Virus record (IMG/VR): IMGVR_UViG_3300045999_011440
Span: 1-25,291 of that record
Direction: 5' to 3' (one strand)
Source: a virus
Length of the DNA: 25,291 nucleotides
Position 1 is the stretch's first letter. Each line of letters starts with the position of its first letter. The notes beneath the pieces were generated by a model. It saw nothing but the letters and a program-made list of their open reading frames with translations. It had not been told where the DNA came from and did no database searches. The translations under genes were made by a program, and so were the position numbers. Shown here piece by piece: positions 15,588-25,291 of the stretch.

Positions 15588-18500
15588 ATGGCTCTAGTAT
15601 CTCCAGGCGTAGAAGTAACAGTAGTTGACGAAAGTCAATATATTCCTTCAGCTGTAAACACAGTACCGTATTTTGTCATTGCCTCTGCGCAGAACAAAGT
15701 TTCTGGCGACGGTATCACCGTTGCAGCTGGCACCTTAGCTGCCAATGCCAACAAAACTTATTTGATTACCAGTCAACGAGATTTGGTTGCTACTTTTGGT
15801 GTACCATTCTTTTACAATACCACTACTGGCACTCCGATCAATGGTTATGAGCTCAATGAATATGGATTGCTTGCAGCATATTCTGCACTGGGAGTAACCA
15901 ATCGTGCTTATATTCAGAGAGCTGACATTGATCTCACTGAGCTCACTGCAAGTTTAACTCGTCCAGTAGGTGTTCCTGCTGACGGAACTAGCTGGTTGGA
16001 TACTTCTGAATCTGTTTGGGGTATTCAAGAATGGAATCAAACTACCAACACCTTCACTGTTAAAACACCATTGATCATAACCAATGCCGATGATGTGGTT
16101 GACAGTGAAGGCACCACACCAGATGACTTTGCACCCTTGCCCAGCATTGGCAGCATTGGCGATTATGCTGTGAGTACGTTGACTACATTTAACTATGGTT
16201 ACTACAAAAATAGCAGCAACACCTGGGTATTTTTGGGCAGTGACGACTGGAAAAATTCATGGCCCACAGTGACAGGCACCGCAAGTCCAACTTCGTTGAC
16301 CGTGGGGGCCAACATGTTAATCAACGACACGTTGGTTACAGTGGGTGCTACCAACACTGTGGCTGGCTTTGCAGCAGTGATCACTGCTGCTGCTATACCT
16401 GGGGTAACTGCCGCAGCAGTCAGCGGAAAATTGCAAATCTATGCTGATTCTCAAGCAACCAATGATGGATCTACTGGATCAGGTGGTATTGTGTCAATTG
16501 AAGCTGGGCCAGTCAGTGGTGCTGCTTTGTTGACAGCACTGGGTATTCAAGGCATTGACTATTATGCGCCAGAATATCTTAATTCTTATAGTTACCAGGC
16601 TCCAAGATGGAGAACCACAGACACCGAACCTGAACCAACTGGATCTGTATGGAACAATATGAGTGCGGCCAACAACGGTGTCAACCTATCATTTAAAAAA
16701 TACAGCACAGCACTGGGCACCTTTGTGTCTCAAAACGTAGGTGTGTACTACGGTGAATTAGGAGCTTTACAGGCACTGGATCCATCGGGTGGCGGCAAAA
16801 ATATACCTGTTGGCACAGTGATTGCTATTGCAAACAACGCAGTGACAGGCTTGGTTGAAAAACCCTCTTTTGCCTTTAGATTGCTAGAACGCCAAACATT
16901 TGGTCAGACAATCATCACTGGTACAACCACACCCACTGGAACACCTTTTGTTGTGGGCAATACATTTACACTGGAAGCCAGCGCAGTGCCTGTGACACTG
17001 ACTCTGAACTCTGGCACAGTGACCATAGGCGGTACAGGCACTGTGGCTGACTTTATTGCAGCCGTCAGTGCTGCCAATGTTGACTATGTGAGCGCCAGTG
17101 TGAATTCGGCAGGCAACATAGTGTTTACACACAGTCAAGGAGGAACAATCTTTTTGACCACTGGCACTGGTACTCCATTGACCACTGCTGGTTTTACAGA
17201 TGCAACTCCTGGAGTGCGAGTCAGTGAAGTCAATGAGTTAATCTTGTCAAACTTTGTGACCACGCCTGAATTTACTTACGCTGCCAGTGACACTGCACCA
17301 GATGTTGATCCTGCTGATGGTCGCCTGTGGTATTACAGTACTGTGAGTCAAGTTGACATTATGATCCAAAACGGCACTGAATGGTTAGGTTATCAAAATG
17401 TAAGCAATGACGTACGTGGTTACGATCTGTCTTTGACCAACGCTTCTGGACCCATTGTGGCAGCCACGGCACCCACCACACAAAACGATGCAGCTCAGTC
17501 ACCACTGGTCTATGGAGACATTTGGATTGACAGCAGTGACCTTGAAAACTATCCATTGATTTACCGTTGGCAAGCAGTGGATGGAGTTGATCAATGGGTA
17601 GCAGTTGACACCACTGATCAAGTCACAGAAAATGGTGTGCTGTTTGCTGATGCTCGCTGGGCGCCCAATGGTACCACAGATCCTATCAGTGATCCATTGC
17701 CTACCATTGAAAGTCTATTGACTTCTGACTATCTTGACCTAGATGCTCCTGATCCAGCTCTGTATCCACAAGGCATGTTGTTGTTCAACACCAGACGCAG
17801 CGGATACAATGTCAAGAGTTTCCAAGTGGATTATTTCAACTCCACTGATTTTCCTGATGATACCTTGCCCAGTGTGAAAAACACTTGGCTCACTGCCAGC
17901 GGCAACAAAGCTGATGGAGCAATGTATTCAGGTCGTCAGGCTCAGAGAAAAATGGTAGTGGCTGCAATGAAAGCTGGTCTGGACGCCAGTGCTGCTGCTA
18001 GAGAAGAGCAGAATCAATTCAACTTGATTTCAGCCACTGGTTATCCTGAGTTGACTCCAAACATGATTGCACTCAGCAATGAGCGCAACAATACCTTGTT
18101 TGTGGTTGGCGACACTCCCATGCGTTTGGGCCCAGACGGCAACAGTTTGGTTGCTTGGGCTACCAACAACGGCGGACTTGGTCTCGAAACCGAAGACGGA
18201 CTCGCTGCTACCAGCAACTATGCAGCCAATTTCTATCCCAGCTGCCAGACCAATGACCTCAGTGGCAACACAGTGGTCAGTGCACCAAGTCACATGATGA
18301 TGCGCACCATTCTGCGCAGCGATGCAGTGAGCTATCCTTGGCTGGCTCCAGCTGGCACTCGACGTGGTGTGGTTGACAATGCCACTGCCATTGGTTACAT
18401 CAACAGCACCACTGGCGAGTTTGAACAACTCAGCGTTGGTCAAGCAGTGCGAGATATATTGTACGAGCGCAATGTCAACCCAATTACCTTTATTCCAGGT

Positions 18501-18875
18501 GTGGGTATTACCAACTTTGGTAACAAGACATCGACCACAACAACCACAGCGCTGGACAGAATCAATGTGGCACGTTTGGTTGCGTTCCTGCGAGGCAGAC
18601 TGGAAGAAATTGGCAAACTGTTCTTGTTTGAACCCAATGATGAAATTACTCGTAATGAAATCACCAATACTTGCAACAGTTTGATGATTGACTTAATCGC
18701 CAAGCGAGCCATCTATGACTACTTGGTTGTGTGCGATTTGTCAAACAACACACCAGCTCGAATTGATAGAAACGAACTGTGGGTTGACATTGCCATAGAG
18801 CCAGTGAAAGCAGTGGAGTTCATTTACATTCCGTTGCGTATCAAGAACACTGGTGAAATCGCTTCTGGAGCATAA
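15588..18875 (+). CDS. gp18: Contractile tail sheath protein (T4 gp18-like), enlarged
   Basis: This gene encodes 1095 aa, against 659 in T4. The N-terminus SPGVEVTVVDESQ and the C-terminal 330 residues are typical: QAQRKMVVAAMKAGL, SNERNNTLFVVGDTP, a PAGTRRGVVDNA segment, FIPGVGITNFGN, INVARLVAFLRGRLE with NEITRN after it, and a final FIYIPLRIKNTGE. Sheath subunits wrap the tube and contract to drive it through the envelope. The additional mass is in the middle (about 130-780). Two segments, about 230-320 and 445-540, look alike and resemble flagellin-IN-type beta-alpha modules; Trp/Tyr-rich strands lie between and after them. They would project outward from the tail. It has a consensus late promoter, an AAAAGGA ribosome site 7 nt upstream, and a terminator-like hairpin behind it. 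Confidence 0.93.
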   Translation: MALVSPGVEVTVVDESQYIPSAVNTVPYFVIASAQNKVSGDGITVAAGTLAANANKTYLITSQRDLVATFGVPFFYNTTTGTPINGYELNEYGLLAAYSALGVTNRAYIQRADIDLTELTASLTRPVGVPADGTSWLDTSESVWGIQEWNQTTNTFTVKTPLIITNADDVVDSEGTTPDDFAPLPSIGSIGDYAVSTLTTFNYGYYKNSSNTWVFLGSDDWKNSWPTVTGTASPTSLTVGANMLINDTLVTVGATNTVAGFAAVITAAAIPGVTAAAVSGKLQIYADSQATNDGSTGSGGIVSIEAGPVSGAALLTALGIQGIDYYAPEYLNSYSYQAPRWRTTDTEPEPTGSVWNNMSAANNGVNLSFKKYSTALGTFVSQNVGVYYGELGALQALDPSGGGKNIPVGTVIAIANNAVTGLVEKPSFAFRLLERQTFGQTIITGTTTPTGTPFVVGNTFTLEASAVPVTLTLNSGTVTIGGTGTVADFIAAVSAANVDYVSASVNSAGNIVFTHSQGGTIFLTTGTGTPLTTAGFTDATPGVRVSEVNELILSNFVTTPEFTYAASDTAPDVDPADGRLWYYSTVSQVDIMIQNGTEWLGYQNVSNDVRGYDLSLTNASGPIVAATAPTTQNDAAQSPLVYGDIWIDSSDLENYPLIYRWQAVDGVDQWVAVDTTDQVTENGVLFADARWAPNGTTDPISDPLPTIESLLTSDYLDLDAPDPALYPQGMLLFNTRRSGYNVKSFQVDYFNSTDFPDDTLPSVKNTWLTASGNKADGAMYSGRQAQRKMVVAAMKAGLDASAAAREEQNQFNLISATGYPELTPNMIALSNERNNTLFVVGDTPMRLGPDGNSLVAWATNNGGLGLETEDGLAATSNYAANFYPSCQTNDLSGNTVVSAPSHMMMRTILRSDAVSYPWLAPAGTRRGVVDNATAIGYINSTTGEFEQLSVGQAVRDILYERNVNPITFIPGVGITNFGNKTSTTTTTALDRINVARLVAFLRGRLEEIGKLFLFEPNDEITRNEITNTCNSLMIDLIAKRAIYDYLVVCDLSNNTPARIDRNELWVDIAIEPVKAVEFIYIPLRIKNTGEIASGA

Positions 18876-20756: not shown

Positions 20757-21116
20757 ATGAGCACTGTCAACGCTGTAAATCCCAATCTAGACAGCACAGT
20801 AAGAGTTTTTGACAACTTTTACAAATTCAACATCAACGTGCCTGCTGCTGAATACGATTTGGTCTACAGTTATTTCTTGCAAGAAATGGGCAACAAACGA
20901 GCCGCTGCAAATTTTGCAACCAGTTTGTTTCAAGTGGCATCGACCACAAACATTCCTGCACTGACTTTGTTGGGCGAATTTCAAGGCATCAATGGATTGA
21001 ATCTCAATGCCAGCTTGGCATATTATCTAAATCAGATACGCAGCCGTGCCACACTGCTGGGAGTTGGAGTGGCCGTTGTTCCCAATGCCTACGTAGCTAG
21101 AAATATACTGATATGA
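20757..21116 (+). CDS. Conserved hypothetical protein between tube and gp4 genes
   Basis: This gene encodes 119 aa, starting one base after the previous stop and overlapping gp4 by four bases (ATGA). The protein is mostly helical: DNFYKFNINVPAAEYDLVYSYF, then RAAANFATSLFQVA, then a LNASLAYYLNQIRSRATLLG segment. I recall relatives in aquatic T4-like phages in a similar place, without a known function. No cysteine cluster, membrane segment or catalytic motif is visible. Tight coupling to tail-tube and head-completion genes suggests a small virion or assembly protein. Confidence 0.75.
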   Translation: MSTVNAVNPNLDSTVRVFDNFYKFNINVPAAEYDLVYSYFLQEMGNKRAAANFATSLFQVASTTNIPALTLLGEFQGINGLNLNASLAYYLNQIRSRATLLGVGVAVVPNAYVARNILI

Positions 21117-21544
21117 GTCGTTGGGCACAGGGTCAGTATGTGGTTAAAAATCCTGACAAATATGTGGGCAAGGGCATACCAAGATTTCGTTCTGGATGGG
21201 AGCACAGTTTCATGCGCTTTTGCGACACCAACGATCACATTTTGCAGTGGGCCAGTGAAAGCATTGCCATACCTTATCGACATCCACTCACTGGCAAAAT
21301 GACGCAGTACATTCCAGACTTTCTGATTACATACCGCAACAGAGACAATACAGTGAGAGCTGAGTTGATTGAAATCAAACCCAAAAAACAAAGTGTGATA
21401 GAAAGCAAAATGAGCAGTAAAGATAGAGCTGTGGTAGCAATCAACTATGCCAAATGGGATGCTGCAACCAAGTGGGCACGCCGCAACGGCATGACCTTTA
21501 GGGTGATCACCGAAAACGACATGTTTGCCAACGGGCGTGCCTGA
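21113..21544 (+). CDS. gp4: Head completion protein, TnsA-like nuclease fold (T4 gp4-like)
   Basis: This gene encodes 143 aa (T4: 150). It aligns by eye with T4 gp4 almost throughout: SRWAQGQYVVKNPDKYVGK, SGWEHSFMRFCD, QWASESIAIPYRHPLTGK, PDFLITYR and IEIKPK. The PD-(D/E)xK/TnsA-type residues are present: Glu30, Asp69, Glu87 and Lys89. In T4 the protein is needed to finish DNA-filled heads so that tails can join, and may trim or protect the packaged DNA end. It is the last gene of the sheath-to-gp4 string. Confidence 0.93.
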   Translation: MSRWAQGQYVVKNPDKYVGKGIPRFRSGWEHSFMRFCDTNDHILQWASESIAIPYRHPLTGKMTQYIPDFLITYRNRDNTVRAELIEIKPKKQSVIESKMSSKDRAVVAINYAKWDAATKWARRNGMTFRVITENDMFANGRA

Positions 21545-21559: not shown

Positions 21560-22045
21560 ATGACAAGAAAACTCGAACAACTGTTTGATTTACCACCAAC
21601 AGAAACTGAAGTCGACACTGCTATACCCACACTGCCTTCCAATCGTGCAACCATAGTTGCACTGGATCAGGCCATTGACAAAATTGATTCGGCTCTGCCA
21701 GCTGTGCGTGGTCTAGATGCCACTGACACAGAAATGGACGAATTGGCCGGCTTGGCCACGGCCAGCTATCGAGATCTCATGGACTTAGGCATGCAAGTAG
21801 ACAGTCGTTTTGCGTCTGAAATTTTTTCAGTGGCATCCAACATGCTGGGACATGCTATCACTGCCAAAACAGCCAAATTGGATAAAAAACTCAAGATGAT
21901 TGATCTACAATTGAAAAAAGCTCGACTGGATCAATCACAACCTGAAGAAAAAGCACCGCAGCAGGGCCAAGGACATGTGTTGAGTCGCAATGAATTGTTG
22001 GATCGTATTCTTGGTACCAAGAACCAAAAAGCGCAAAATGAATAA
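21560..22045 (+). CDS. gp16: Terminase small subunit (T4 gp16-like)
   Basis: This gene encodes 161 aa (T4: 164). The central helices (about residues 60-125: ELAGLATASYRDLMDLGMQV, then FASEIFSVASNMLGHAITAKT, then KLDKKLKMIDLQLKKARL) follow the gp16 coiled-coil core. The acidic N-terminus and the C-terminal SRNELLDRILG resemble the flexible ends. In T4 gp16 forms rings that regulate the large terminase gp17 and help start packaging. gp17 is not the next gene here. No Shine-Dalgarno site is obvious. Its stop codon is within the next late promoter. Confidence 0.75.
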   Translation: MTRKLEQLFDLPPTETEVDTAIPTLPSNRATIVALDQAIDKIDSALPAVRGLDATDTEMDELAGLATASYRDLMDLGMQVDSRFASEIFSVASNMLGHAITAKTAKLDKKLKMIDLQLKKARLDQSQPEEKAPQQGQGHVLSRNELLDRILGTKNQKAQNE

Positions 22046-22065: not shown

Positions 22066-22674
22066 ATGAAACCATTTGCCAAATATCTAGCAGAAAGCGA
22101 ACGCACATACGATTATCGTATCAAAATGTGTGGTCGCATTCCAGACGATCTTGTGCGCCAATTCAAAACCAAGCTGGATCAATTTGATCCAGTGAAATTA
22201 GGCGACATCAAAATCACTCCCATTCAAAAAGTGCTCACTGACTTTCCCAACAACAAAAATGACGCAGTGACCATGTTTGATGCCAGTTTCAAATATCCTG
22301 CCATTGAACCGCAAATCAAACAACTGTTTCAGTTGCTGGGCGGTGACCCCAATCTCATAGTGATGCAAACACAGGCTCATGTTGACGGCCTGGTTGACGA
22401 AGCAGACCGAGTTGAAACTGAAAACAAAGATTTGTTGGCCAACACTGATTTGCCGCCACCTGATGCTGAACAACGTGCACTGAAAAAAGATTACAGTGCT
22501 GAACCGCATGATCATGCAGTGTTGAAAAATGCTTACCGTTCTGATTTCACAGTGGCTGGTGGTAAAACACCCGCTGCGAAGACCACAAATGATTTGCCTC
22601 TGGGCACCAAAAGTCCAATGACAAATATCAAACGTCCGCCCAAGCCAGCCACTGGCGCTCAACCCCGAGGATAA
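22066..22674 (+). CDS. Hypothetical head-associated protein with capsid-targeting-like leader
   Basis: This gene encodes 202 aa. The N-terminus MKPFAKYLAESE resembles the capsid-targeting leader of T4 internal proteins (MKTYQEFIAE in IPIII); cleavage by a gp21-type prohead protease after Leu-x-Glu (residues 8-10) would remove ten residues. The next 90 residues form a compact alpha/beta unit (RIPDDLVRQF, KVLTDFPNN, MFDASFKYPAIEP and LFQLLGGDP) seen in other aquatic T4-like phages. The C-terminal 80 residues are polar and Pro/Lys-rich, likely disordered. The function is not known; a core or packaged internal protein is my inference from the leader and from adjacency to gp16 and the next gene. 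Confidence 0.65.
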   Translation: MKPFAKYLAESERTYDYRIKMCGRIPDDLVRQFKTKLDQFDPVKLGDIKITPIQKVLTDFPNNKNDAVTMFDASFKYPAIEPQIKQLFQLLGGDPNLIVMQTQAHVDGLVDEADRVETENKDLLANTDLPPPDAEQRALKKDYSAEPHDHAVLKNAYRSDFTVAGGKTPAAKTTNDLPLGTKSPMTNIKRPPKPATGAQPRG

Positions 22675-22680
22675 TTCAAA

Positions 22681-24702
22681 ATGACATTTTTTTATGACCT
22701 AAACAAAAAACTGGACAGCATTCGCGAAAAACCAGAAACCACAAACCAACAACTCAACGAACGTGACATGAGTCGTCATGCCAAAGGTATTGAAAAGTTT
22801 GGCAAAGACGGCATGCAGGCCCTGGCCAAGGCTGGTCGTGAAGGCAAGCCTCTTGACAAAATCAGAGCCAAGTATGACAAATACGACGAGTCAATGGATG
22901 AAGGCCTAGGTTCTATTGTAAAGAAAATTGGCGGTGGCATGAAAAAAATGGCCGGTCGTGCCATGGACAAAGTGGCTCCCGGAGACGAGGCACTGTTGAA
23001 AGATCTACAGAAAAAAGTGGGTGTACCACAAACTGGCATGAAGCCAGGTAGCCAACCAAATCCCAAGGTAGTCAAAGAAGTAACTGCCCCAATTGATTTT
23101 GACAAAGTGTTAGATGCTATTGCTGCATTGTACGGCGACGAAATATGGGACAATGATGCTATGCAGGATCTAGCCAACGATCTTGAACAAGCAGGTCCAA
23201 CTGAAAGAGAACTAGATTTCATTATTGCCAAAGGTAAGTTGCCAAAACGGTTGGCTGGCATCCAATTCTCAGCAGGCGACAATGTTCAATTTGGCGAAGG
23301 AAGTTCTCCAATGTCACCCAAGCAAAAGAGCTTTGCTGCATTGGCTGAGCCCAAAGACAAAATTACTTTTGCTGACAAGATTGCCGGCGCCAAAAAAGAA
23401 GTTGACGAGATGCTGGGCGATGTGGCTGCTGAAGCCATGCGTGGCGCACTCAAAGGTGGCCAGAAGAAACTAGACCGAAATCAAAACGGTAAACTGGATG
23501 CACAAGACTTTGCCATGCTGCGTAAAGGCGGCAAGCAAGAAACTGACGAAGGCTGGGATGACATGATCAAAGCAGTCGATCAACGTCGCGGTGAAGTCAA
23601 AGCTGGTCACAAAGTGCAAGGGGCCAAAGGCGAGATTGAAAAAACTGCCACTGGCATCAAGCACACTCGCAGATACGATGCCAAAACTGGCGAAACAGAC
23701 ACTGGTGATGATGCACCAGCCGATGGCGAAAAGCGCGGTCGTGGACGTCCCAAGGGCACAGGCAAGAGCATGGGCGCCAAGGGACCATCAGGCAAAAGCA
23801 AACTGATGACCAAAGAAGCAGATCACGACAGTGAAGAAATCAAACAGGCCGTGGCCATGCTGAAAAAAGCTGGATACCGAGTTGAGAAAGCTGAACAAGA
23901 GCTTGACGAAAAAGCTGTGAGCAAAAAGCAGCAGCGTTTCATGGGCATGGTTCATGCAACACAAAAAGGTGAAAAAGCTCCTTCAAAAGAAGTTGCCAAA
24001 GTAGCCAAGTCAATGGGCAAGAAAGATGCTGAAGACTTTGCTGCTACCAAGCACAAAGGCCTGCCTGAAAAGAAAAAGCCAGAAAGCAAAAAGAAAGAAA
24101 AAACAGAAGAAGCTGGTGGATCAGGAACCCCCACTGCATCCAGCGGATTCAGTTTTGGCAAAGGCATTTACGATTCAATGAATCGCGAGCTTGAAACCAT
24201 GATTGCTGAAAGCATGAACATATCAATGAGCATGAACAGCGACGATGCCATGCACGGTGGTGCAGCCAAAACACTGACAGTGACAGCCACAGATGACGAT
24301 GCCATGAAGTTGGCTGCATTGTTGAAAATGGCAGGCCTGGGCAGCCAAGGCGCTGAACAGACCATTGATGAAAACGCACCAGATTGGCCCACTGAACAAG
24401 AAACCAGCGACAATGCCATGCAGTATTCAGGTGGATTGAACGGACCCAAGTCAACTGGTCAGACCACGGTACCTGTGATTGCCAGTCAAATCAATCGTCA
24501 GGCCACCTACGAGGATGACGAATTGAATCGCTTGCGTGAAATGGCCGGTGTGGCCGAAGGCAAGAAGCCAGACTTCTTGGACATGGACAAAGACGGTGAC
24601 AAAGAAGAGCCAATGAAAAAAGCTGTCAAAGACAAAGAAGACAAAAAAGTCGAAGAAAGTATTCTTGACATGAAACGTCTGTGGACAGCCTACAAGGGGT
24701 AA
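22681..24702 (+). CDS. Large charged modular protein, candidate internal-head precursor
   Basis: This gene encodes 673 aa, rich in Lys, Glu, Asp and Ala, with a start 6 bases after the previous stop. Modules in order: a basic N-terminal region (30-130); an alpha-helical block (135-195); an EF-hand/dockerin-like calcium loop at 265-276 (DRNQNGKLDAQD); an AT-hook at 351-359 (RGRGRPKG); a DUF3008-like stretch at 411-465 (KKQQRFMGMV to KGLPEKK); a block at 510-620 common in aquatic phages (SGGLNGPK); and a second, degenerate acidic loop at 634-643 (DMDKDGDKEE). Five Leu/Ile-x-Glu sites resembling T4 gp21 cleavage sites fall at 25-27, 221-223, 408-410, 508-510 and 562-564, several at module edges. 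I infer a head-core or packaged DNA-binding precursor. It could instead be a large scaffold-like protein. Confidence 0.7.
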   Translation: MTFFYDLNKKLDSIREKPETTNQQLNERDMSRHAKGIEKFGKDGMQALAKAGREGKPLDKIRAKYDKYDESMDEGLGSIVKKIGGGMKKMAGRAMDKVAPGDEALLKDLQKKVGVPQTGMKPGSQPNPKVVKEVTAPIDFDKVLDAIAALYGDEIWDNDAMQDLANDLEQAGPTERELDFIIAKGKLPKRLAGIQFSAGDNVQFGEGSSPMSPKQKSFAALAEPKDKITFADKIAGAKKEVDEMLGDVAAEAMRGALKGGQKKLDRNQNGKLDAQDFAMLRKGGKQETDEGWDDMIKAVDQRRGEVKAGHKVQGAKGEIEKTATGIKHTRRYDAKTGETDTGDDAPADGEKRGRGRPKGTGKSMGAKGPSGKSKLMTKEADHDSEEIKQAVAMLKKAGYRVEKAEQELDEKAVSKKQQRFMGMVHATQKGEKAPSKEVAKVAKSMGKKDAEDFAATKHKGLPEKKKPESKKKEKTEEAGGSGTPTASSGFSFGKGIYDSMNRELETMIAESMNISMSMNSDDAMHGGAAKTLTVTATDDDAMKLAALLKMAGLGSQGAEQTIDENAPDWPTEQETSDNAMQYSGGLNGPKSTGQTTVPVIASQINRQATYEDDELNRLREMAGVAEGKKPDFLDMDKDGDKEEPMKKAVKDKEDKKVEESILDMKRLWTAYKG

Positions 24703-24704
24703 AC

Positions 24705-24875
24705 ATGGTATACAAGCCTTACAATGAAAATTTGAACACTCCTACTCAGCAGAATCCGCACAGTCCTGCAACCAGTGGGTATCGTCAACAACCAGTGGAG
24801 ATTCCTGGCGTGCTGGATCAAACTCGTCAGTTGTATCAACCCGTGGTTAGCCAACCCAACAAGGACAAGAAGTAA
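24705..24875 (+). CDS. Small hypothetical protein
   Basis: This gene encodes 56 aa from the ATG at 24705, with AAGGGG 5 nt upstream; it begins 2 bases after the previous stop. The protein is Pro/Gln/Asn-rich (about one third of residues) and probably disordered. The longer in-frame start at 24681 lies inside the preceding gene and lacks a ribosome site. Its stop shares one base with the next start. Small polar proteins in this position may be head-associated, but no family is recognised. Confidence 0.6.
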   Translation: MVYKPYNENLNTPTQQNPHSPATSGYRQQPVEIPGVLDQTRQLYQPVVSQPNKDKK

Positions 24876-25168
24876 TGCCTGCCAATGTATACACCTCTTT
24901 AAGCAATGCCACCGTCTATACTGACCGGTTGGAGATCAGCACCAATGCTGCCAATGCTTGGTTGCAGGTGTATGCCACAGCTCTAGGCACTGCCAATGCT
25001 GCGGGAAATTTGTACTCAGCTCCTATAAACATTCCTGCCAACACAGTGTATCAGACCTATGTTGGTGCCGGCAATAAAGTGACCATAGTGTGCACAGCTT
25101 CGTACACAGCATTGGAATTAGGAACAGCCAGTTCAGCTCAATCTGGAGTGATTGGCGGAGGCAGCTGA
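24875..25168 (+). CDS. Small beta-rich hypothetical protein
   Basis: This gene encodes 97 aa, starting in the preceding TAATG overlap and ending in the TGATG overlap of the next. It is rich in Ala, Thr, Asn and Val, has alternating strands (TVYQTYVGAGNKVTIV) and a Gly/Ser end. The composition recalls the phage's fibre and decoration proteins. No signal or catalytic motif is visible. A capsid decoration role is possible from composition and neighbours only. Confidence 0.65.
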   Translation: MPANVYTSLSNATVYTDRLEISTNAANAWLQVYATALGTANAAGNLYSAPINIPANTVYQTYVGAGNKVTIVCTASYTALELGTASSAQSGVIGGGS

Positions 25169-25291
25169 TGCGAGCCCGCGAATTTTTGGCAGAGAAAAAA
25201 GTTGGTGACATCAGCACCAGGCTGCGATATGCCACTCGTGGCCTGCATAAATTTCGCGATGGTCAGTTTGCTGATCGTATCTATGAACTCA
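25168..25291 (+). CDS. 3'-truncated gene with capsid-targeting-like leader
   Basis: The frame opens at the ATG sharing one base with the previous stop and runs to the window end (41 full codons) without a stop. The N-terminus MRAREFLAEKK again has the short leader ending in Leu-x-Glu seen in the gene at 22066. ATRGLHKFRDGQFADRIYEL follows soon after and is like a conserved segment in aquatic phage proteins that I recall only as hypotheticals. It may be another packaged or core protein. The rest lies outside the window. Confidence 0.6.
   Translation, partial: MRAREFLAEKKVGDISTRLRYATRGLHKFRDGQFADRIYEL

Follow-up and report, generated by a model that had tools for sequence, protein, structure and literature searches.

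A portable N-terminal leader resembling T4 capsid-targeting propeptides on unrelated proteins of T4-like phages

The capsid-targeting sequence (CTS) of bacteriophage T4 is a leader of about ten residues, with Lys2, aromatic residues at positions 4 and 7, Leu or Ile at 8 and Glu at 10 (MKTYQEFIAE). Such leaders are described for the T-even phages, where targeting and clipping by the leader are published for T4, together with the idea that the CTS lets T4-like phages package varied proteins; in IPIII, residues 4 and 7 target the protein and residues 8 and 10 govern its processing (PMC9026906). The T-even internal proteins have only the leader in common (PMC12373910, PMC3012670). The packaged ADP-ribosyltransferase Alt of T4 is cut at ITE-6 and LTE-619 (PMC5694885), and other head-packaged ADP-ribosyltransferases have been predicted by gene context (PMC9503650). 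Polyvalent proteins, which have ADP-ribosyltransferase and lysozyme domains, are predicted to be effectors that phages deliver (PMC5512222). A literature search covering titles, abstracts and passages returned no paper that surveys CTS tags across aquatic T4-like phages. Here we describe two leaders of this kind in IMG/VR virus record IMGVR_UViG_3300045999_011440, a stretch of 25,291 bases from one lake virus that encodes T4-like myovirus genes (hereafter the window), and the proteins that carry similar leaders in related phages.

The two leaders stand at the starts of the genes at 22066 and 25168, and each ends in Leu-x-Glu (L8-A-E10 and L7-A-E9), just as a preliminary description of this DNA had noticed:

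22066..22674, + strand: 202-residue protein, made up of the leader, a beta-alpha-beta-beta-alpha-beta domain (residues 15-102) and a C-terminal part of low model confidence
22066..22095, + strand: its leader, MKPFAKYLAE, a predicted capsid-targeting propeptide with cleavage predicted behind E10
25168..25291, + strand: 5' part of a gene, assigned through its relatives to a tagged family of about 125 residues and cut by the window end
25168..25194, + strand: its leader, MRAREFLAE, a predicted capsid-targeting propeptide (MRAxEF(I/L)xE form) with cleavage predicted behind E9

The first protein begins MKPFAKYLAE/SERTY (here and below, a slash marks the position after the Glu), with F4, Y7, L8 and E10 all present. 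It is like the T4 leader in length, in Lys2, in the aromatics at 4 and 7, in Leu or Ile at 8 and in Glu10. The second begins MRAREFLAE/KKVG, and its frame leaves the window after 41 codons. As with the T4 proteins IPI, IPII and IPIII (Mullaney and Black 1996, via PMC9026906), the leader is common to otherwise unrelated proteins, and a gp21-type protease is encoded in related viruses. Unlike the T4 set, the window also holds the nine-residue MRAxEF(L/I)xE form, which lacks the first aromatic; its 202-residue cargo is a conserved gene beside head genes, and the cargo of the aquatic relatives is far wider. We consider it likely that both starts are T4-like capsid-targeting propeptides. During prohead assembly the leader would dock the protein onto the scaffold core, a gp21-type protease of the S77 family would cleave [F/Y]-[L/I]-x-E behind its Glu and free the protein inside the DNA-filled head, and the tagged protein could then enter the host along with the DNA.

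We evaluated how far chance explains these starts. The loose motif proposed earlier for a genome-wide search, M-x(4-7)-[LI]-x-E, performed near chance and is unfit as a detector: counted on first-ATG proteins of two relatives and compared with shuffles, it occurs in 18 of 395 proteins in G009 (shuffle mean 13.0, maximum 22) and in 16 of 246 in G013 (mean 7.5, maximum 17). Two tight forms were counted at gene starts and at internal methionines. In the IMG/VR relatives of the 202-residue protein, of which the best 80 of 242 stretches were used (L001-L080), M[KR]x[FYW]xx[FYW][LIVM]xE opens 43 and MRAx[ED]F[ILVFM]xE opens 39 of 624 distinct open reading frames (ORFs), and neither form is found at any of 3,023 internal methionines. 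For G009 and G013 together the corresponding figures are 2 and 6 of 733 ORFs, and 0 of 3,232. The ORFs of L001-L080 are mostly orthologues, so 43 and 39 are not independent counts; the zero counts, amounting to 0 of 6,255 over all internal methionines checked, carry the weight. The tight leader forms at gene starts are not due to chance.

Both leaders are conserved within their own families. MK[PNS]FA[KHQ]YLAE/SER is present in 80 of the 80 stretches, and M1, K2, F4, A5, Y7, L8, A9, E10 and S11 are invariant across 43 distinct relatives and the window; a further 202-residue ORF, in L202, starts MKNFQQYLTE/SERT and shares its locus with four MRA-tagged genes. In the AlphaFold2 model of the 202-residue protein (mean predicted local distance difference test score, pLDDT, 58.5), the domain at residues 15-102 mostly scores 70-86, while leader residues 1-11 score below 50 and lie outside it; the modelled arrangement, a small alpha-beta domain preceded by a loose leader, is compatible with a removable propeptide. 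In the family of the 25168 protein, M1, R2, A3, F6 and E9 are invariant among 30 aligned members (14 of which came from leader-pattern loci) at a mean column identity of 45%. Independently of any search with this leader, the L001-L080 loci yielded 31 distinct start strings of the MRAxEF form. The relatives of about 125 residues often end in SPVxxFKGYPR, and the next gene after the 25168 orthologue frequently bears a tag as well, for example MRAREFITE. The 25168 protein belongs to an expanded tagged family. Its members (the window from 25168 on, L041:11014-11385 and relatives) often stand as a neighbouring pair with leader and C-terminal SPVxxFxGYPR common to both, the latter possibly a second signal at the opposite end of tagged proteins. 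The predicted structure of this family had a mean pLDDT of 56 and was not used.

The tag is also portable. Three patterns, MRAxEF(I/M)xE, MRAxEF(L/F)xE and MKx(F/Y)xEF(I/M)xE, were scanned in IMG/VR and were found in at least 120 stretches each, against 10 in total for a codon-permuted control of the first. Among the matches listed, a frame of at least 50 residues opened at 137 of 140, 126 of 130 and 121 of 129 pattern places, respectively. The upstream region had an in-frame stop no more than 30 codons away in 125 of 136, 117 of 125 and 113 of 120 cases (355 of the 381 tagged ORFs listed), compared with 2 of 10 control sites. Once the leader was removed, the 349 distinct tagged ORFs (closed frames of at least 50 residues; open, shorter and duplicate frames were dropped) fell into 104 families among the matches listed. 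Residues fixed by a search pattern are no evidence of conservation, but the free positions are usable: the MK form has Thr3 in 32 of 54 and Ala11 in 18 of 54, with little conserved from residue 12 on, and leader conservation drops past the Glu and one more residue. These observations support the assignment of the leaders at 22066 and 25168 to a portable CTS-like N-terminal tag. Tagged genes also form arrays, of six in L347 and of five each in L202, L204, L277 and L337. A late promoter TAAATA upstream of the tagged genes was rejected as a common feature; it precedes 30 of 136, 44 of 125 and 60 of 120 of them, compared with 251 of 1,201 background starts, and the first set is not above background.

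The proteins behind the tag are diverse. Pfam, searched with the 104 representatives, matched 16 families at E<=0.001, every one of them in a single member (among the matches listed), including two ADP-ribosyltransferase families, Fe/Mn superoxide dismutase, peptidase M23, LysM, amidoligase and a helicase domain. PHROGs annotated several representatives as 'internal head protein' or 'internal virion protein', and also returned a cytidyltransferase. An MRATEFLTE leader precedes an Fe/Mn superoxide dismutase with its two domains (L375:1265-1795, +; Pfam E 1e-22), and an IMG/VR phage contig, L450, encodes a tagged ADP-ribosyltransferase domain (PF18760, E 1e-23); the latter is alike to T4 Alt, and the window holds none. 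Of ten tagged proteins that looked ADP-ribosyltransferase-like by eye, nine had no such match and the tenth had one at E 0.03. By eye, the six leader-like starts of L347 (9449 down to 6653) belong to genes of differing sizes, some with ADP-ribosyltransferase-like starts. Single-protein scans identified GH19 in L149, LysM with SLT in L228, and LysM with Phage_lysozyme2 in L289. In L149:2992-3609 (+) and L228:413-1294 (+) the leader is followed immediately by a twin-arginine (Tat)-like stretch and then by the cell-wall hydrolase (TAT_signal E 0.0096 in L149 and 0.00013 in L228, neither reaching the cut-off); clipping after the leader would turn this Tat-like signal N-terminal. Whereas polyvalent proteins fuse many domains per chain, the tagged proteins here are separate, with one tag each.

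Few of the proteins that phages carry into cells are known, as a mark in the sequence has been used to recognize them only in a few T4 relatives. It is conceivable, if slightly on the doubtful side, that in lake and marine T4-like phages a single short N-terminal tag serves as a general loading address, with several tagged genes possible per phage, at times in runs of five or six, and at least 100 unrelated cargo families that include enzymes. Clipping in the head would then expose the Tat-like signal on the two hydrolases, which could let the host export the enzyme, once injected, into the host periplasm. If this is true, the proteins that uncultured T4-like phages package, and possibly inject, could be listed from sequence alone, and the named cargo set would become testable in ordinary phage-host experiments.

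The protease that such propeptides would need is encoded by many of the related viruses. The window, a 25 kb fragment, has no gp21-type protease, and the preliminary description had named the lack of a prohead protease in the genome as a ground for abandoning the idea; this ground falls away for 12 of 21 larger relatives' records, in which PF03420 is found, and gp23 is found in 15 of the 21. These records are fragments, so a missing protease or gp23 says little, and the nine without a protease may be incomplete. In G009 the portal, core proteins, protease, scaffold and gp23 stand together (protease and gp23 identified by search, the rest by eye). Among 15 tagged records, PF03420 is present in nine, all of at least 120 kb, and in none of the six below 102 kb. 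It is also present in 13 of 18 further large tagged records, two of the five misses (L405 and L296) having only spurious ORFs of 15 and 19 residues; without these two, the protease is found in 22 of 25 large tagged records, once as a weak match in an 831-residue frame. Eight control records gave no PF03420; as just one of these is large, the association mostly shows that T4-like phages are where the tag occurs. A candidate gp23 cleavage site, LKE/NA, is the last conserved L-x-E before the conserved gp23 core in the relatives; the T4 cut falls in an alignment gap and the site could not be fixed. By eye, the interval from the tagged cluster to the large terminase contains two radical-SAM-like genes and an oxygenase-like gene in G009 (C1:212076-215694) and G013 (C1:39514-43077).

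Indirect virion data come from relatives. In phage PA5oct the gene order is head closure, a gene of the 161-residue type that also precedes the 202-residue gene in the window, the homologue of the 202-residue protein (gp282), a further gene and terL; its annotation marks gp282 and the next gene as virion proteins identified by electrospray ionization tandem mass spectrometry (ESI-MS/MS). When 150 of the 174 kb of cyanophage S-SM1 were scanned with M.{2,7}[FYW][LIVM].E, two ORFs matched, one of them probably by chance. The other is SSM1_190, 'cytitidyltransferase' T4-GC190, with the leader MKKFSAFLNE/A (L588:48256-49419, +), and the genome paper reports T4-GC190 from purified virions of S-SM1 (PMC3037559). 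A CTS-like leader thus coincides there with reported virion presence, while cargo and genome location differ from those in the window. This leader is kept down to about 40% identity, in S-SSM7, P-SSM5, S-SSM4, Syn33 and S-WAM1 (MRFRQFIIE), and also in L471 (37% identity). No leader was seen in T4-GC190 of S-PM2 (L590, at the annotated start) or in the homologue of Pseudomonas phage PAC2, and T4-GC190 was reportedly not among the proteins detected in the S-PM2 virion (PMC3037559). S-SM1 and S-PM2 may thus form a natural contrast, which is only suggestive because several T4-type structural proteins were also missed in S-PM2.

The leader might instead be a docking helix only, which targets the protein to the head but stays on. 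This would account for PA5oct gp282, which is found in the virion though its leader (MKSFRDYYDASKRKYSF) keeps F4 and Y7 and lacks L8 and E10; cleavage is therefore not universal in the 202-residue family. We nevertheless regard docking alone as unlikely, given that the Glu is invariant in 44 aligned 202-residue sequences and in the 30 members of the 25168 family, and that targeting in T4 depends mainly on residues 4 and 7, not on 8 and 10 (PMC9026906). The gp282 leader also counts against a cleaved propeptide, the reading we prefer, and so do several further points. The 207 homologue of XbC2 (MNKLQKILTDLTPEYSY) has no L-x-E at the leader end, and the 673-residue neighbour in the window carries no leader. 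MRAREFLAE has Ala in place of the aromatic at the position matching T4 CTS residue 4, its F6 corresponding to residue 7. An S77 protease was not found in 6 of the 15 tagged records (all below 102 kb) or in 3 of 16 large ones, the loose motif was rejected as a tag detector and showed no genome-wide enrichment, and no mass spectrometry was found for the window's own phage.

That the window's tagged proteins are injected to block host defences, as the preliminary description had suggested, appears rather improbable. There is a precedent in T4, whose Ip1-3 share the leader only and inhibit GmrSD nucleases (PMC12373910), and tagged cargo elsewhere includes ADP-ribosyltransferases. However, the 202-residue gene keeps its place next to the 161-residue gene (77 ORFs across the 80 fetched loci), with equal order in PA5oct, unlike the anti-restriction IP genes of T4, which are variable, and we found no defence-related function for any window protein. 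A fold search with the model of the 202-residue protein returned no PDB structure at E<=0.001 and six viral matches without a tabulated function, and the protein matches phrog_14802, 'virion structural protein', at E 4e-4 over residues 2-84; a profile search (alignment A1) gained no more distant relatives within the 80 loci kept. Because it is conserved and has a fixed gene position, the 202-residue protein is probably a head or DNA-associated component rather than a variable anti-defence protein. A DNA-level feature behind the shared starts, such as a recombination target or a translation-start element, would agree with the frequent arrays and with the codon skew at Arg2, where 39 of 50 representatives use AGA compared with a background of 0.45. 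The synonymous codons at leader Ala, Phe, Glu and Lys are near background usage; Arg2 excepted, selection therefore acts on the peptide, and we think a DNA signal very improbable. Least credible is a descent of every tagged gene from one protein, which would make them distant paralogues and the leader mere shared ancestry: the largest clusters do hold 97 and 92 of the 349 ORFs (among the matches listed) and the C-terminal SPVxxFxGYPR is common to two tagged ORF families, but the bodies are unrelated at Pfam level, spanning GH19, SLT, M23, superoxide dismutase, ADP-ribosyltransferase and cytidyltransferase.

The T4-like genes of the window comprise a tail sheath, a tail tube, a second tail tube protein and the gp4 head closure protein, followed by the leader region, in which the two tagged genes have these neighbours:

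21113..21544, + strand: gp4-type head closure (head completion) protein (phrog_218, E 1e-40; PF08722, E 3e-21)
21560..22045, + strand: putative small terminase at the gp16 position, 161 residues, by synteny with PA5oct
22681..24702, + strand: 673-residue modular low-complexity protein without a CTS-like leader
24705..24875, + strand: small ORF of 56 residues without a leader, conserved, with 32 relatives in L001-L080
24875..25168, + strand: ORF of 97 residues without a leader and without a significant family match

The small terminase named in the preliminary description agrees with gene order, the PA5oct homologue of the 161-residue protein lying between head closure and two structural proteins identified by mass spectrometry, upstream of terL. 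Profile comparison lends it no support, hhalign against S-SM1/T4 gp16 giving a probability of 0.3% and E 0.2 with thin alignments of 4 and 2 sequences, and the gp16 label stays putative, on synteny. In cyanophages the gp16-gp17 interval is a hot spot of variable genes (PMC3037559). The tail sheath (15588-18875, 1,095 residues) has its best sheath-family match over residues 541-1089 only, outside its first half.

The cluster of packaged proteins envisaged earlier is partly supported and may hold for the two genes with a portable CTS-like tag; the 673-residue protein between them, which starts MTFFYDLNKKLDSIREK, has no such leader, and the two extra small ORFs (24705-24875 and 24875-25168) separate it from the gene at 25168. 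The PA5oct gene in the place of the 673-residue one is annotated as an ESI-MS/MS virion protein. The 673-residue protein has a DUF3008-like stretch (412-465; 17.9 bits, threshold 24 not reached) and an EF-hand-like stretch (262-301), both below the Pfam cut-offs. Its orthologues range from 415 to 1150 residues and have conserved [LIVM]xE sites, QLNE/RDM in 23 of 23, MIAE/SM in 22 of 22 and GVAE/GK in 20 of 20. A polyprotein cut at [LI]xE was not retained, as the 8 sites observed are within composition (shuffle mean 5.2, maximum 13), and GVAE as a repeated cleavage linker was dropped, exact copies being limited to five in G009 and two in G013. The orthologues gain and lose DUF3008-like, EF-hand-like (DxDxDGD) and, by eye, AT-hook-like (GRGRPKG) modules, and the three read at full length have a C-terminal ESI(F/L)...W(K/T)AYKG.

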